A stretch of 64,000 nucleotides of DNA, taken from contig NZ_SMAK01000001.1 of the NCBI RefSeq assembly GCF_004346195.1, positions 1 through 64,000 of the forward strand, given 5' to 3'. The position numbers were made by a program, and so were the translations under genes. This document shows, one piece after another, positions 954-16,209 of the stretch. Source of the DNA: Tepidamorphus gemmatus. Lineage in GTDB: Bacteria; Pseudomonadota; Alphaproteobacteria; Rhizobiales; Tepidamorphaceae. Positions within the stretch are counted from its first letter, which is position 1, and each line of letters begins with the position of its first letter. The notes beneath the pieces are model-generated. The model did not search any database. It was not told the origin of the DNA and worked only from the letters and a program-made list of their open reading frames with translations.

Positions 954-2123
954 TCAGATCACCGCCAGCTCGCGCACGGGGCGTGCCTCGGCGATCCGCC
1001 CGTAGCCGAACACCGACAGATCGAGGGTCACGAAGCCGCCGTTGACAATGAGCTCGGCCACGGCGCGCCCGGCGCCGGGCGCCTGCTGCAGGCCATGGCC
1101 TGAGAAGCCGTTGGCGAAGATCAGGTTGGGAATGTCAGGATGAGGTCCGATCACCGCATTCTGGTCTAGCGCGTTGTAATCATAGTGGCCGGCCCAGGCG
1201 CGTTCCAGCCGAATCGCTTCAAAGGCCGGAACGCGCGTCGCCAGTGCGGGCCAGATCGTCTCCTCGAACAGCGCGTAGTCGACCTCGAGATCGTTCGTTT
1301 CAGGATCCTGGTCCTGCGGCGGCGATATTCCGGTGATGTAGACGTCGCCTTCGGGCCGCACCCAGACGCCGGACGTGTCGACGAGCAGTGGCATTCGCCC
1401 GACCGGCTCGCGGCAGCGGAACACGAAGACCGAGCGTTTGCGCGGACCGACCGGCAGAGTCGTTCCGGCGAGCGCGGCAATTGCGCCGGCCTGCGGACCT
1501 GCCGCATTGACAAGCGTTCCGCAGCCGATTGCGGTCCCGTCGGCAAGGACGACACCGGCGATCCGACCGTTCGAGCGATCTATGCCTACGACCTCCGCCT
1601 CGATATAGGACGCTCCTGTGGATCGGGCGCCGCGTCGCAGAAGGTGCAGGAGCGCATGGGCGTCGAACCAGCCTTCGCCGGAGCGACCGAGCGAGCCGAG
1701 CGCAACGCCCTCGGGCGACAGCCACGGGAACCGCCGCACCAGCTCGTCCGGTTCGAGCAGGACCACATCGGCGCCCTCCGACGTCTGCACGGCATGATTC
1801 GCCGCCATGATCGCGCGTCCAGCAGGGGAGGCGAGCAGCAGATAGCCCTCCTCGCGGAAGCCGATGTCGGCATCCTCGCCGAACCGGTTGCGAATCGAGC
1901 GCAGGAATTCCAGCCCGAACCGGGAGAGGCGGATGTTCTCGGGCGTAGAGAACTGCTGGCGGATCGAGGCGGCCGACAGGGTGGTGGCCGAGCGCGCGTA
2001 TGTGGCATCGCGCTCGATGACGGCGACGGAGCCCCTGAAGTCCAGTTCGCCCTTCAGGAACCAAGCAATGGCGCTGCCGATGATGGCACCGCCGACGATC
2101 ACCACATCATATCTGTCAGCCAT
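954..2123 (-). CDS. FAD-dependent oxidoreductase, DAO (amine/D-amino-acid oxidase) family
   Basis: 389 aa. The N-terminus has a dinucleotide-binding Rossmann motif (VVIVGGAIIGSAIAWFL, residues about 7-23) followed by a conserved acidic residue in VIERD, as in sarcosine oxidase beta subunit and glycine oxidase relatives. The C-terminus has GPHPDIPNLIFANGFSGHG, the usual second FAD-contacting segment (FxGHGxQ). Such enzymes oxidise secondary amines or amino acids with release of an imine or aldehyde; the substrate cannot be read from sequence. It precedes pdxY on the same strand with a 13-base gap. The 152 bases between its start and the CoA lyase on the other strand must hold divergent promoters, but I see no clear boxes. 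Confidence 0.85.
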   Translation of the reverse strand: MADRYDVVIVGGAIIGSAIAWFLKGELDFRGSVAVIERDATYARSATTLSAASIRQQFSTPENIRLSRFGLEFLRSIRNRFGEDADIGFREEGYLLLASPAGRAIMAANHAVQTSEGADVVLLEPDELVRRFPWLSPEGVALGSLGRSGEGWFDAHALLHLLRRGARSTGASYIEAEVVGIDRSNGRIAGVVLADGTAIGCGTLVNAAGPQAGAIAALAGTTLPVGPRKRSVFVFRCREPVGRMPLLVDTSGVWVRPEGDVYITGISPPQDQDPETNDLEVDYALFEETIWPALATRVPAFEAIRLERAWAGHYDYNALDQNAVIGPHPDIPNLIFANGFSGHGLQQAPGAGRAVAELIVNGGFVTLDLSVFGYGRIAEARPVRELAVI

Positions 2124-2275
2124 ATCTGTCAGTCGTCTCGAAAGCGCCGCGTCCGGTCGGCCGGCGCCGCGAGGTCAGGTCGGCCTCGTCTGGCCCGGCA
2201 CATGCGACGGACGGTGGCACAAGCCGGATTGCCGGGCTAGTGTGCGCCGCGAAAAGGTGGAATGCGGAGGCAACA

Positions 2276-3163
2276 ATGCACAAGCCGATCCGGCCGCGGC
2301 GCAGTGTCCTGTACATGCCCGGCTCGAATGCGCGGGCACTCGAGAAGGCTCGCTCGATCCCGGCAGACGCCCTGATCCTCGATCTGGAGGATGCGGTGGC
2401 GCCGGATCAGAAGGCGACAGCTCGAATCCAGGTCGCCGAGGCGGTCAAGGCCGGCGGCTATGGCGGCCGCGAGCTAGTCATCCGGATCAACGCACTCGAT
2501 ACCCCGTGGGGGGCGCATGATCTGACGACGGCGGTCAATGCGAGGCCGGATGCGATCCTCGTGCCGAAGGTCGAGACGGTCACCGACCTGCGGGAGGTGG
2601 CCATCAAGGTGCGTGCCGGCGGACATCCGATTGCGATCTGGGCGATGATCGAGACGCCGCGGGCGCTGTTGCGGATCAACGAGATCGCCGCCTGCGCCAA
2701 CAATCCGGAAATTCCGCTGACCGTCTTCGTCATGGGCACCAACGATCTCGCCAAGGAGACCCGCGCCCGTCTCGTCCCGGGCCGCGCGCCGATGCTGCCC
2801 TGGCTGACGACCACCATCCTCGCGGCGCGCGCCTGCGGCATCGACGTGATCGACGGCGTCTTCAACGACTTTCGCGACATGGCGGGGTTCCGTGCCGAAT
2901 GCGAGCAGGGCCGCGATCTCGGCATGGACGGCAAGACGCTGATCCATCCCGACCAGGTTGCGATCGCCAACGAGCTGTTCGGGCCCTCGCCGGAGGAGGT
3001 GGAGCGCGCCCGCGCGATCATTGCCGCCTTCGCCCTGCCGGAGAACGCCGGCAAGGGTGCGATCTCGCTCGACGGGCGGATGGTCGAATTGCTGCATGCC
3101 GAAATGGCCAGGCGCACCGTCGCACTGGCCGAAGCCATCAGGAAGCTGGAAGCCGCCGCATGA
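2276..3163 (+). CDS. CoA ester lyase, CitE/malyl-CoA lyase family
   Basis: 295 aa from ATG 2276, chosen because GGAGG at 2266-2270 sits five bases upstream; an in-frame ATG at 2240 lacks this. The family is a TIM barrel: RSVLYMPGSNARALEKA binds CoA, DLEDAV (about residue 37) and MIETPRAL (about 130) carry the Mg-coordinating acids, and IHPDQV is a conserved C-terminal signature. Relatives cleave or hydrolyse L-malyl-CoA, beta-methylmalyl-CoA or citramalyl-CoA. The following mesaconyl-CoA hydratase makes a (methyl)malyl-CoA lyase or malyl-CoA thioesterase role in the ethylmalonyl-CoA route likely (inference). Length and motifs resemble the Mcl2/thioesterase branch more than the roughly 318-aa Mcl1 lyase. 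Its stop overlaps the next gene's start (ATGA). Confidence 0.85.
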   Translation: MHKPIRPRRSVLYMPGSNARALEKARSIPADALILDLEDAVAPDQKATARIQVAEAVKAGGYGGRELVIRINALDTPWGAHDLTTAVNARPDAILVPKVETVTDLREVAIKVRAGGHPIAIWAMIETPRALLRINEIAACANNPEIPLTVFVMGTNDLAKETRARLVPGRAPMLPWLTTTILAARACGIDVIDGVFNDFRDMAGFRAECEQGRDLGMDGKTLIHPDQVAIANELFGPSPEEVERARAIIAAFALPENAGKGAISLDGRMVELLHAEMARRTVALAEAIRKLEAAA

Positions 3164-3363
3164 TTCTCTATCGCTACCTTACCGGACCCGACGATTCGAC
3201 CTTCTGCAAGCGGGTCTCCGCCGCCCTCAACAATGGCTGGAAGCTCTCCGGCAATCCGACGCTGACCTTCGACCCGACCCAGGACCGCGTCATCTGCGGT
3301 CAGGCGATCATCAAGGAGGTGCCGGGCGAGTGGTCGGAGGACATCACCCTGTCGGACTATTGA
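3160..3363 (+). CDS. DUF1737-type small protein
   Basis: 67 aa. The start ATG overlaps the stop of the CoA ester lyase by four bases, so it is probably translationally coupled. It contains YRYLTGPDD, F-C-K-R-V and an NNGWKLSGNPTLTFD stretch, matching the short DUF1737 domain in which a Leu-Gly-Trp-type core is followed by a strand pair. No signal peptide or membrane segment. Function is unknown; its place between lyase and hydratase suggests an accessory or regulatory role for that pathway, which is inference only. The 119 bases to the next gene contain no other feature I can support. Confidence 0.75.
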   Translation: MILYRYLTGPDDSTFCKRVSAALNNGWKLSGNPTLTFDPTQDRVICGQAIIKEVPGEWSEDITLSDY

Positions 3364-3482
3364 GGGCGCTGCAACCGCCACGTCGCCCCGATCCCGGACA
3401 ACCGCTTGCGCGCCGTCCGGGATGATGAGGGTGACAGTCGGCGCCGCCACCAGCCAGTGACGACAGACAGGATCGAGATATC

Positions 3483-4535
3483 ATGTTGAGAGCCAGCACC
3501 GGCAACTTCTTCGAGGACTTCGAAGTCGGGCAGCGGATCCGCCACGCCACCCCGCGGACCGTGACGGCGGGCGACGTCGCGCTCTACACCGCCCTCTACG
3601 GCTCGCGCTTCGCCGTGCAGTCCTCCGATGCCTTCGCCAGGGCGATCGGCTATCCGCACGCACCGGTCGATGACCTCCTGGTGTTCCACGTGGTGTTCGG
3701 CAAGACCGTGCCGGACATCTCGCTCAATGCCGTCGCCAATCTCGGCTATGCCGGCTGCCGCTTCCTGCATGCGGTCTATCCCGGCGACACACTGTCGGCG
3801 GTCTCGGAGGTAATCGGCCTCAAGGAGAACTCCAATCGCCAGACCGGCGTCGTCTATGTGCGCAGCCAGGGCTTCAACCAGCACGGCACCGTGGTGCTCG
3901 ACTATGTGCGCTGGGTGATGGTCCGCAAGCGTGATGCGGACGCGCCAACTCCTGCGGCGGTTGTGCCGGAGGTCCCCGCCGCCCTCGCGCCGGACACGCT
4001 CGGGGACGCGGCACCCTATCTGTCCATCGGCGACTGGGACTTCGGTCTGTCCGGTAGTTCCCGCCGGTTCGCCGATTACCGCATCGGCGAACGGATCGAC
4101 CATATCGACGGCATGACGGTCGAGGAGGCAGAGCACCAGCTTGCCACCCGCCTCTACCAGAACACCGCCAGGGTTCACTTCAACCAGCACAGCGAGGGAC
4201 AGGGCCGCTTCGGTCGGCGGCTGATCTATGGCGGACACGTCATCAGCCTTGCCCGCGCGCTGTCCTTCAATGGACTGCAGAATGCCTTCCATGTCGCCGC
4301 CATCAACGGCGGGCGCCATGTCGGGCCGCTGTTCGCCGGCGAGACGGTCTATTGCTGGTCGGAGGTGATGGACATGGGCGAACTGCCCGGCCGCGACGAT
4401 CTCGGCGCGCTCAGGCTGCGGACGGTTGCCACCAAGGACCGGCCCTGCGCGGATTTCCCCTTCACCGACGCCGACAACCGCTACGACCCGGCCGTAGTCC
4501 TCGACCTCGACTACTGGGTGCTGGTGCCGAGATAG
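3483..4535 (+). CDS. mch: Mesaconyl-CoA (beta-methylmalyl-CoA) hydratase, MaoC family
   Basis: 350 aa with two hot-dog domains: an N-terminal one starting NFFEDFEVGQRIRHATPRTVT and a C-terminal one from about residue 185 (FADYRIGERIDHIDGMTVEEAEHQ). This tandem arrangement and length (about 340-350) are those of Mch, which interconverts mesaconyl-C1-CoA and beta-methylmalyl-CoA in the ethylmalonyl-CoA pathway. The stretch GRRLIYGGHVISLARALSFNG is a MaoC-type substrate-tunnel signature. It follows the CoA ester lyase that would act on its product, supporting the assignment. Alternative: a generic MaoC hydratase acting on another branched acyl-CoA. The 140 bases to sdhC contain a weak TTGCCT...TATAGA pair at 4595-4621. 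Confidence 0.85.
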   Translation: MLRASTGNFFEDFEVGQRIRHATPRTVTAGDVALYTALYGSRFAVQSSDAFARAIGYPHAPVDDLLVFHVVFGKTVPDISLNAVANLGYAGCRFLHAVYPGDTLSAVSEVIGLKENSNRQTGVVYVRSQGFNQHGTVVLDYVRWVMVRKRDADAPTPAAVVPEVPAALAPDTLGDAAPYLSIGDWDFGLSGSSRRFADYRIGERIDHIDGMTVEEAEHQLATRLYQNTARVHFNQHSEGQGRFGRRLIYGGHVISLARALSFNGLQNAFHVAAINGGRHVGPLFAGETVYCWSEVMDMGELPGRDDLGALRLRTVATKDRPCADFPFTDADNRYDPAVVLDLDYWVLVPR

Positions 4536-4675
4536 CGGTGCGCAGGCCGCATGGCGACTGGCCGAGGCCCGCAACGGATACCCGCATGGACGCATTGCCT
4601 GAGGCGGTTGCGGGCTATAGAAGGCGGTGCTAGGCAACCGCCGTCCGACACGGCGGCGTACCGAAGCGGATGACC

Positions 4676-12891: not shown

Positions 12892-12929
12892 TTGTCAAAT
12901 GAACATTCGATCAATAGAATGACTGTTCA
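12892..12929 (+). promoter_or_regulatory. Promoter with overlapping operator for the TetR-Rieske gene
   Basis: TTGTCA at 12892-12897 and TAGAAT at 12915-12920 are separated by 17 bases, a good sigma70-type promoter in an unusually AT-rich patch. TGAACA at 12900-12905 and TGTTCA at 12924-12929 are inverted repeats, with inner ATTC (12905-12908) and GAAT (12917-12920) also inverted. The reverse-strand half reads ATTGAACAGTC, reminiscent of BetI-type sites (ATTGAACGTC). The operator would cover the -10 box and the probable start site, as expected for autorepression by the encoded TetR domain. Confidence 0.55.
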
Positions 12930-12950
12930 ATAGACGGATGGGAAACTGCC

Positions 12951-14735
12951 ATGCTCGACACGCCCGGCCAGCACGCCCGCACGCGTCTTTCGCAGGACGC
13001 GCGCCGGGAACAGCTCATCGATGCGGCGATCCGCGCCATCGCCGAAAATGGCCTGTCCAACGTCACCCTCAACAAGGTGGCGCGCCGCGCGGGCCTGACC
13101 GCCGGCATGGTCAATTTCCATTTCCAGTCCAAGCAGGAGCTGCTGCATGCCACTCTGGCGCGCATCGCCAGCGAATACCGCGAGGCGTGCGAGGCGGCCG
13201 TCGCGGCCGCCGGCACGTCGCCCGCCGCCGGGCTGATGGCGCTGGTGCGGGCAAGCTTCGATCCGCGTATTGCCAGCACGGAGAAACTTGCCGTCTGGTA
13301 TGCCTTCTGGGGCGAAAGCCGGGCGCTTGACGACTACATGTCGATCTGTGGCGCCTCCGACCAGGCCTTCTACGAATCCGCCCGGGAGCTGATCGAGGCG
13401 CTGGCAGCGCAGATGTCGGCGACGGTGCACGCACGGGCCGCAGCCCTCGGTTTCTGCGGAATCATCGACGCTCTGTCGCAGGAGGCACTGGTGCAGCGAG
13501 ATCGGTTCGACCGCGCCGAGGCGATCGAGACCTGCCGCCGCTATCTCGAGAACCTGTTCCCCGGCGCGTTCGGCGCGATCGAGCCGCTGTCCGCCGCGAC
13601 ACCGGCCGAGCCCGCGAGCGCGGAGGAGCAGGACTATCTCGACCGGCTGACGCTGCCGGCCTGGACCTACTGCGACCGTGACTTCAGCGCCCGGGAGGTG
13701 GCCCGGCTGCACCTGCCGGCCTGGCAGCTTGTCTGCCACATCAGCGAGATGCCGAAGCCAGGAGACTACGTGACGCTGAACGTGCTCGGCAGGCAGGCCG
13801 TCGCGATCCGCGGCGAGGATGGCGAAATCCGCGCCTTCCACAATGTCTGCCGGCATCGCGGGCACCCGGTGGCGCAAGGCCGCAGCGGCAATAGCGGCGG
13901 CATGCTGCGCTGCCCCTATCACGCCTGGTGCTACGACAACCGCGGCGTACTGAAGGGCATCGCCGCCTCACGGACCTTCCCCAAGCTCGACCGGAATACG
14001 CTGGGGCTGTTTCCGGTCGAATGCGAGGTGTTTCTCGGCTTCGTGTTCGTGCGCTTCGCTCCGGGCGGTCCCTCGGTCGCGGAGCGGTATGCCCCCTATC
14101 TCGAGGAGCTTGCCCCGTACCGCATCGAGGAGATGCAGCCGATCGCCGACTACTGGGAAGGCGCGGTGGAGGCCGACTGGAAGAACGTCTGGGACAACTA
14201 CCTTGAAGACTATCACTTTCCGACCGGGCATCCCGGCCTGTCGGCCCTGATGGGCAAGGAGTACGACCGCGAGCCGGATTATCGGACCCGCACCATCCGC
14301 CTCAGCCATCGCCTGCGCGATAAGGTCGAGGGGTCGTGGGCAACCCGCATGTATTCCAAGGTGCTGCCGCCATGCGACCACCTGCCCGAGGGCCAGCGTC
14401 GGCGCTGGACCTATTTCTACTTGTTCCCCGCAGTGTCCTTGGAGACCTACCCGGATCTCGTGGATGTCTTCCATATCGTTCCGCTCGGTCCGGGCCGCTC
14501 CCTGCTGCGGTGGCGCGCCTATGGCCTGCCCGGCGCCGACCGCGCCCTGCGTGCGGCGCAGTGGCTCAACCAGCGGATCAACTATGCCGTCCATGACGAG
14601 GACAATGCGCTGATCGAGGCCGTGCAGCGGAACCTGGCGGGCGGCGTCTACCAGCGCGGCGTACTCTCCGACAAGGAGATCAACGTCAAGGCGTTTCACG
14701 ACTGGATCCGCGAGGCGATGCCAGAGGCCCGCTAG
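12951..14735 (+). CDS. TetR (BetI-like) regulator fused to a Rieske-type aromatic-ring/quaternary-ammonium oxygenase
   Basis: 594 aa in one uninterrupted frame. Residues about 15-63 are a TetR helix-turn-helix (VTLNKVARRAGLTAGMVNFHF, read as overlapping parts) and 64-205 a BetI-like ligand domain (EKLAVWYAFWGESRA, ETCRRYLENLF). After a short linker (about 212-228) comes a full Rieske oxygenase alpha subunit: [2Fe-2S] ligands C300-R-H302 and C321-P-Y-H324; mononuclear iron ligands H422 and H427 in YLEDYHFPTGH and a probable D551 (EDNALIEAVQ). The bridging position three before H422 is Glu 419, as in carnitine oxygenase CntA, rather than the usual Asp; GbcA-like glycine-betaine demethylases are also close. 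BetI senses choline, so regulator and catalyst point to the same substrate class (inference). No reductase gene is adjacent. GGATGGG lies ten bases before the ATG. Confidence 0.85.
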   Translation: MLDTPGQHARTRLSQDARREQLIDAAIRAIAENGLSNVTLNKVARRAGLTAGMVNFHFQSKQELLHATLARIASEYREACEAAVAAAGTSPAAGLMALVRASFDPRIASTEKLAVWYAFWGESRALDDYMSICGASDQAFYESARELIEALAAQMSATVHARAAALGFCGIIDALSQEALVQRDRFDRAEAIETCRRYLENLFPGAFGAIEPLSAATPAEPASAEEQDYLDRLTLPAWTYCDRDFSAREVARLHLPAWQLVCHISEMPKPGDYVTLNVLGRQAVAIRGEDGEIRAFHNVCRHRGHPVAQGRSGNSGGMLRCPYHAWCYDNRGVLKGIAASRTFPKLDRNTLGLFPVECEVFLGFVFVRFAPGGPSVAERYAPYLEELAPYRIEEMQPIADYWEGAVEADWKNVWDNYLEDYHFPTGHPGLSALMGKEYDREPDYRTRTIRLSHRLRDKVEGSWATRMYSKVLPPCDHLPEGQRRRWTYFYLFPAVSLETYPDLVDVFHIVPLGPGRSLLRWRAYGLPGADRALRAAQWLNQRINYAVHDEDNALIEAVQRNLAGGVYQRGVLSDKEINVKAFHDWIREAMPEAR

Positions 14736-14985: not shown

Positions 14986-16209
14986 ATGGAGGCCACCGCA
15001 CGCCCGCACCCCGGAGCTGCATTCGACACCGGCCTGCGCCGCTTTCCGAATGCGCGGGCGGTGGCGCTGGAGCTGTGGCCGGACGAGCCAGTCTACTGCT
15101 TCCGGCCGCAGGTGCTGGCCGCCGATGCCGAGGCGTTCCGCGCTGCCTATCCGGGTCGCACCGCCTATGCAGTCAAGACCAACCCGCATCCGCTGGTGCT
15201 CAACACGCTGGCGCGGATCGGCATCGATGCCTTCGACGTCGCCTCGCCGGCAGAATTCCGCATGGCCCGTCAGGCAGCGCCCGCTGCCGACCTCCTGTAC
15301 ATGCATCCGGTGAAGGCGGCGACCGCCATCCGCGAAGCGCTCACGGCCTATCGCATCCGCCACTTCTCGCTCGACCATGAAGGCGAAGCAGCGAAGATCC
15401 TGCGCGAGGCCCGGGGCGCGGGGGTGCCGGTCAGCGAGCTGACATTGTTCGTCAGACTGGCGACCAGAGGCCACGCGGCCTACAACCTGTCGCGCAAGTT
15501 CGGCGCGGCGCCCGGCCATGCGGTGGAACTGCTGCAGCGGGTGGCGCGGCTCGGCGCGCAGGCGGGTCTGTGTTTCCATGTCGGCAGCCAGGTCGAGGAG
15601 CCCGACGCCTATGAGCGCGCGCTGAAGAGCGCGCAATGGGTGCGTCAGCGCGCCGGTGTGCCGGTGGCTGCCCTCGATATCGGCGGCGGCTTTCCCGCCC
15701 GCTATGGCCACGACCGCCGACGCCCGGCACCGGCGGTGCCACCGCTCGCCCGGCTGATGCCGCGGATCGTCAAGGCCATCGAACGCTACGGCTTCGCCGA
15801 CCTGCCGCTGGTCGCCGAGCCGGGCCGGGCGCTGGTCGCCCGCTCGCTGTCGGTGCTGGTCCGGGTGCTGCTGCGCAAGGGGCAACGGCTCTACATCAAC
15901 GATGGCGTCTGGGGGAGCCTGTCCGATGCCTGGACCGGCAAGCTGACGCTGCCGGTGCATCTGATCCCGGAACCCGATCGGGCGCGGCCGGCAGGCGATC
16001 CCCGCAAGCACGCCGCCTTCCGGATCATGGGTGCCACCTGCGACTCCGTCGACATCCTGTCACGGCCGTTCTGGTTGCCGGAGACCGTTGCCGCCGGCGA
16101 CTGGATCGAGGTCGGCCATATCGGTGCCTACTCGCTGTCGCTGCGCACCGACTTCAACGGGCTCTACCCCGATACCTTCGTCGAGGTGGAGAGCCCGTTC
16201 CGCAGCTGA
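14986..16209 (+). CDS. Fold-type III PLP-dependent amino-acid decarboxylase (ornithine/lysine decarboxylase-like)
   Basis: 407 aa from ATG 14986; the frame is open from 14932 but family members begin near here. TAYAVKTNPHPLVLNTL carries the PLP-binding Lys, HVGSQ, DIGGGFP and EPGRALVA are the PLP phosphate and pyridine contacts, and GATCDSVDIL has the catalytic Cys of the dimer interface. Known members convert ornithine or lysine to putrescine or cadaverine. It is co-directional with the TetR-Rieske gene 250 bases upstream; that gap shows no clear gene or terminator, so a shared transcript is possible but not shown. Confidence 0.85.
   Translation: MEATARPHPGAAFDTGLRRFPNARAVALELWPDEPVYCFRPQVLAADAEAFRAAYPGRTAYAVKTNPHPLVLNTLARIGIDAFDVASPAEFRMARQAAPAADLLYMHPVKAATAIREALTAYRIRHFSLDHEGEAAKILREARGAGVPVSELTLFVRLATRGHAAYNLSRKFGAAPGHAVELLQRVARLGAQAGLCFHVGSQVEEPDAYERALKSAQWVRQRAGVPVAALDIGGGFPARYGHDRRRPAPAVPPLARLMPRIVKAIERYGFADLPLVAEPGRALVARSLSVLVRVLLRKGQRLYINDGVWGSLSDAWTGKLTLPVHLIPEPDRARPAGDPRKHAAFRIMGATCDSVDILSRPFWLPETVAAGDWIEVGHIGAYSLSLRTDFNGLYPDTFVEVESPFRS

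Follow-up and report, generated by a model that had tools for sequence, protein, structure and literature searches.

The 64,000-nucleotide stretch of DNA that we analysed (hereafter the window; positions 1 to 64,000 of contig NZ_SMAK01000001.1 of the alphaproteobacterium Tepidamorphus gemmatus) carries, at 12951–14735 on the forward strand, a gene whose reading frame is free of internal stops and encodes 594 amino acids. Its start codon is backed by an MLD start conserved in three relatives (L012, L015, and L016). Four Pfam domains, all above their curated cut-offs and all on the same strand, make up the protein: a TetR_N helix-turn-helix (13014–13151; residues 22–67, E 5e-13, 49.1 bits against a cut-off of 24), the BetI-type C-terminal ligand and dimer domain TetR_C_6 (13221–13559; residues 91–203, E 2e-15, 57.3 bits against a cut-off of 27), a Rieske [2Fe-2S] domain (13722–13976; residues 258–342, E 2e-21), and a Ring_hydroxyl_A catalytic iron domain (14163–14723; residues 405–591, E 1e-37). 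The first two scores place the N-terminal half in the TetR family, BetI type. The C-terminal half has the marks of a Rieske non-haem iron oxygenase, namely the CxH...CxxH pattern, the 2-His-1-carboxylate triad, and the Rieske and Ring_hydroxyl_A domains. By sequence and alignment, its cluster ligands (C300-x-H302 and C321-x2-H324) and its iron ligands (H422-x4-H427 and D551) are complete, and E419 occupies the electron-bridging position. An initial annotation, made from the letters alone, had read a TetR regulator and a Rieske oxygenase with all its metal ligands in one 594-codon frame; reading frame, domain search, and alignment bear this out for both halves.

Structure prediction agrees. AlphaFold2, given an alignment of 43 proteins from the window and the loci described below, folds both halves confidently (mean pLDDT 92.9), falling below 50 only at residues 1–9 and at residues 210–218 (13578–13604, forward strand), and the model has two well-formed domains with this short, floppy linker between them. 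The recognition helix lies at about residues 51–57, including N55, as judged from the modelled helix and from covariation with the operator. The codon-position GC of the linker is like that of coding sequence. Residues 181–250 contain no in-frame ATG, GTG, or TTG, so a second start near the junction is not apparent, and we ruled out two proteins made from one frame by that route. The next gene downstream (14989–16206) is a lysine/ornithine-decarboxylase homologue that the relatives' loci lack. Elsewhere in the same genome, a stand-alone TetR paralogue of 37% identity (contig C5 of G000; L151 1648–2322) adjoins an acyl-CoA dehydrogenase gene.

The arrangement is recurrent, as a census of the architecture makes clear. 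One genome per species was scanned for 84,980 species, giving 79 loci that were checked by reading frame and domain; the same intact fusion occurs in 17 of the 79, from other assemblies. Whole-genome searches add three more (L089, L117, and L120), for a total of 20 further loci. These intact fusions, which we call class 1, are found in Inquilinus, a Pseudoxanthobacter-labelled metagenome-assembled genome (MAG), Rhizobiales/Hyphomicrobiales, Kiloniellaceae, Parvibaculaceae, and gammaproteobacterial or marine MAGs; many class-1 relatives, and all relatives of the second class described below, are MAGs. The Pseudoxanthobacter-labelled MAG holds the nearest relative (68% identity in the Rieske half). 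Among 385 evenly drawn Alphaproteobacteria, 22 had a match at E <1e-60, and in three of the 22, the window's own genome included, it was a fusion. The TetR–Rieske fusion is therefore rare yet spread over several families. In class 1 the two halves diverge equally (mean identity 46.9% for TetR and 49.6% for Rieske), and dN/dS in close pairs is 0.12–0.16 for TetR and 0.08–0.21 for Rieske, so both halves are under purifying selection. The 20 further fusions, together with this selection, rule out a sequencing or assembly artefact. In one record, named Mycobacterium sp. KBS0706 (L008), the fusion and its flanks differ very little from those of Inquilinus limosus, and the organism name looks wrong.

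Upstream of the gene, a consensus scan finds a sigma-70-like promoter (TTGTCA-17-TAGAAT, 12892–12920, forward strand; 10/12 matches, one found against 0.1 expected). We also ran a de novo search (expectation maximisation, palindromic model) over the regions in front of 22 genes, 17 of them fusions and five TetR genes of tandem pairs. It returned one 16-bp palindromic motif, TTGAAYGATCATTCAA-like, with the consensus TTGAATGATCATTCAA and a likelihood score of 245 versus 34–36 for shuffled DNA. Two copies of the motif are interleaved with the promoter: the predicted operator O1 (TCAAATGAACATTCGA, 12895–12910) fills the spacer between −35 and −10, and O2 (TAGAATGACTGTTCAA, 12915–12930), its centre 20 bp from that of O1, begins at the −10 element and overlaps it. 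A palindromic site had been noted near 12.89–12.93 kb, and that observation now extends to two copies of a motif predicted to be a conserved, promoter-overlapping operator. The same layout recurs in most class-1 relatives (L008, L010, L011, L012, L015, L016, L022, and L065). About half of the fusions have a second site 20–22 bp away, whereas the 14 unfused comparisons have none (Fisher p 0.0007, computed on hand-picked rows). We considered whether the paired operators might reflect how the fusion oligomerises, or trimers in particular, and dropped the idea, as the −35/−10 geometry of O1 and O2 explains the spacing equally well.

In the 3.78-Mb genome, a strict form of the motif matches the fusion promoter only (0.5 matches expected by chance), and a looser form adds three sites, all within coding frames, which leaves the fusion promoter as the only intergenic occurrence of the palindrome. 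Strong sites at the loci of class-1 relatives likewise lie mostly at the fusion's own promoter. Since the palindrome is confined in this way, in the window's genome and at most class-1 loci, the regulon is predicted to consist of the fusion gene alone.

What the oxygenase acts on can be narrowed in part. The best solved match to this half by Foldseek is CntA (6zgp; TM 0.83 on target, 24% identity), a group Va Rieske oxygenase. In CntA, Y203, the cation-pi tyrosine, and E205, the bridging glutamate, mark clade Va, whose substrates include carnitine, choline, and benzalkonium (PMC7948474); in alignment both are found in the fusion, as Y417 and E419 (DNYLEDYH). The fusion differs from CntA in that it is joined to a regulator, has no adjacent reductase gene, and lacks the Cys206/Cys209 pair that lies by the iron in CntA and Stc2 and in some group V members (PMC10952381); D420 and F423 stand in place of the Cys-x-x-Cys pair. 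The TetR half resembles BetI, the choline-sensing repressor, in its TetR_C_6 domain, and BetI is its closest NCBIfam regulator model. It nonetheless misses both BetI equivalog cut-offs (115.1 of 118 bits for NF001978 and 110.9 of 201.3 bits for TIGR03384), is fused to an oxygenase, and has no choline–glycine betaine genes seen beside it. The NCBIfam equivalog for the glycine betaine monooxygenase GbcA is missed as well (126 of 670 bits). With these cut-offs missed, we dropped the names BetI for the regulator and GbcA or CntA for the enzyme, and the exact substrate is unreadable from the two profiles.

The neighbours of the class-1 and class-2 loci include a PotF-like polyamine-type ABC importer, a class-III aminotransferase, a PuuC/betaine-aldehyde-dehydrogenase-like enzyme, a GcvT/TMAO-demethylase-like protein, and FAD oxidases. 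Judged by gene content, they suggest polyamine-type import, deamination, and C1 or demethylation chemistry besides quaternary amines. The quaternary-ammonium substrate proposed in the initial annotation therefore stands in part: the BetI-type C-terminal domain and the CntA-like bridging glutamate speak for it, and the missed BetI and glycine betaine cut-offs, with the polyamine-type neighbours, keep the choice wider. Our best guess is an amine that is methylated or quaternary and that may derive from a polyamine. No reductase for the oxygenase is encoded beside the fusion gene, and the genome's only FAD_binding_6 protein, on another contig, looks membrane-linked. In Dongia-type loci (L077, L078, L036, and L033), the oxygenase gene comes first and the TetR gene after it, and the position of CntA Y203 holds Asn, the clade Vb signature; given this Asn, both substrate clades may occur in the window's oxygenase subfamily.

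The reading that we favour, at a probability of roughly 0.6, and also the simplest, is that the fusion would be an autorepressing enzyme, the same molecule serving as repressor and oxygenase. By way of the predicted sites in its promoter, it probably shuts off its own gene. When the inducer is absent, dimers of the TetR halves would occupy O1 and O2 and keep RNA polymerase off the promoter; once an inducer filled their pocket, the protein would leave the DNA. That inducer is probably the oxygenase's substrate or product, and probably an amine that is methylated or quaternary. The protein set free in this way, or made afresh, would then act as the oxygenase, drawing electrons from an unlinked reductase, and the enzyme level would be set by one polypeptide counting itself. 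Counting against this reading are the missing neighbouring reductase and the demand that chains held in a Rieske trimer should also pair as TetR dimers on the operator DNA.

A rival account is that translationally coupled TetR and oxygenase genes merged by loss of a stop, leaving two independent halves whose only gain is a fixed 1:1 stoichiometry. Near relatives do have the two as separate tandem genes (L023, L025, L038, L045, and L060); in L045 the two frames share 4 nt, at the stop of TetR and the start of the oxygenase, and in L023, L025, and L060 the oxygenase start follows closely. These pairs have homologous halves and the same operator type before the TetR gene, but they are two genes, and no convincing second operator copy 20–22 bp off was seen in them. 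The fused state also switches several times on the Rieske tree, where it requires four changes, at least three of them forced by well-supported branches. On the rooted tree the fusions are basal, but the outgroups are long, and unrooted counts permit several gains; the changes may be fusions or fissions. Against a passive merger, the intact fusion persists across many families and down to about 37%–43% identity, with members from more than one Rieske subfamily, and we regard that account as rather unlikely.

In other relatives the fused enzyme half has decayed. This second class comprises about 20 loci, mostly from gammaproteobacterial MAGs (L026–L031, L037, L040, L041, L046–L054, L057, and L063). 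Their Rieske-like half is still recognised by Pfam in the members tested, and the predicted structure of one member (L030; pLDDT 84.6) retains its match to stachydrine demethylase and CntA. Most members are without at least one of the cluster ligands and without H-x4-H. Two (L049 and L051) keep all four cluster ligands and H-x4-H, with the bridging acid absent; owing to these we dropped the statement that all class-2 halves are dead, and use "degenerate" instead. The TetR half stays strongly conserved, ligand domain included: mean identity is 70% for TetR and 35.5% for Rieske, and in all 136 pairs TetR is the better conserved half. Beside the degenerate fusion, most class-2 loci encode a further oxygenase that is intact, stands alone, and belongs to the window's subfamily.

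An independent motif search places a predicted class-2 operator, TTATATGATCATATAA, at the promoter of that stand-alone oxygenase (score 258 versus 35 for shuffled DNA). Recognition helices and half-sites covary across the two classes, VNF pairing with TTGAA-type half-sites and VRF with TTATA, and a few INF and VNH helices fall on the TTGAA-like side; the covariation is largely one evolutionary change, though intermediates exist. Among these, L046 and L075 (N) have kept sites of the TTGAA type, and those of L041 (T) are hybrid. Mixed sites are also seen in L019 and L020 (VNH). Through this covariation the degenerate fusions are tied, in trans, to the working enzyme's promoter, and the class-2 switch appears, from its predicted sites, to control a separate working oxygenase copy. 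The enzyme copy would thus have escaped the switch: the Rieske half of the fusion lost its ligands, and the regulator would have taken control of the stand-alone gene. Within the class-2 TetR clade, the Rieske half is undetectable in four members (L034, L035, L085, and L080), and L034 and L035 retain the same operator at the oxygenase gene despite the loss.

These relatives bear on where the signal is sensed. The initial annotation had cast the regulator as a direct sensor of substrate turnover. In that account, the Rieske half would be the sensor, and its bound substrate, its assembly into trimers, or the redox state of its cluster and iron would release the TetR half from DNA, so that transcription would track occupancy or turnover. 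It can draw on the single chain, the short linker, and the two intact halves of class 1, and on the precedent of PutA, a catabolic enzyme whose fused DNA-binding domain makes it an autogenous repressor (PMC5293562). The relatives suggest otherwise: the class-2 Rieske half decays as the TetR half is kept, L034 and L035 have dispensed with it and kept the operator, and class-1 linkers range in length from about 10 to 41 residues, which is unfavourable to tight coupling. We therefore hold sensing by the enzyme half to be quite unlikely. Decay or loss of the Rieske half beside a conserved TetR ligand domain favours the TetR pocket, rather than enzyme turnover, as the main sensor, although class 1 could differ. 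That the TetR half is a vestige without DNA binding, merely decorating the enzyme, is very improbable: its DNA binding is predicted from sequence, but the helix-turn-helix is conserved and under purifying selection, and the conserved promoter operator covaries with the recognition helix.

As an autorepressing enzyme, the fusion would have company. To our knowledge, single-chain enzyme-repressors are few, PutA being the textbook case. The fusion shares with PutA a DNA-binding and a catalytic domain in one chain; the parts differ, being a ribbon-helix-helix with proline and P5C dehydrogenase domains in PutA and a TetR domain with its own ligand pocket and a Rieske oxygenase here, and a PutA-type redox or ligand switch in the fusion is putative. 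MocR/GabR regulators join a GntR-type helix-turn-helix to an enzyme-derived domain of the PLP aminotransferase fold. Class 2, with its degenerate enzyme half, resembles them, but the families are different and no origin is shared. In the open literature searched we found no TetR–Rieske protein described, in line with the initial claim that no protein of this architecture has been characterised; sequence databases probably list such proteins under automatic names. The principle, then, is already known from PutA-like autogenous enzyme-repressors, and what appears to be new is the TetR–Rieske domain pair and the gradation from intact through degenerate to lost enzyme halves.

Intact fusions, tandem pairs, degenerate fusions, and Rieske-less regulators coexist, with readable operators. 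The series makes it testable how enzyme–regulator fusions arise, whether the enzyme half senses, and how a pseudoenzyme emerges, and the fusion itself is a ready-made oxygenase, encoded by one gene and predicted to limit itself, that gives access to a putative methylated-amine pathway. A tentative, and on balance doubtful, extension is that this is a lineage in which a metabolic enzyme became a transcription-factor domain: a substrate sensor for the repressor at the outset, after duplication a sensing or assembly domain, no longer catalytic, within a trans regulator, and in some members discarded, with all stages in living genomes. One contig (G222:C12; L117) has an intact fusion (1387–3318) overlapped by a tandem stand-alone oxygenase copy (3294–4559), a plausible intermediate between the two classes. 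An alphaproteobacterial locus (L091; G011:C1:206067–207263, wider region L116 8038–9726) joins a window-like TetR half (53% identity) to a ligand-less Rieske half (31%), and on this sequence evidence is a second, independent conversion to a degenerate fusion. It adjoins a GcvT/amine-oxidase/aminotransferase cluster, and both the [2Fe-2S] and the iron ligands of its Rieske half are lost. A class-2-like TetR also occurs on a Paceibacterota-labelled MAG contig (L086), probably through a binning error.
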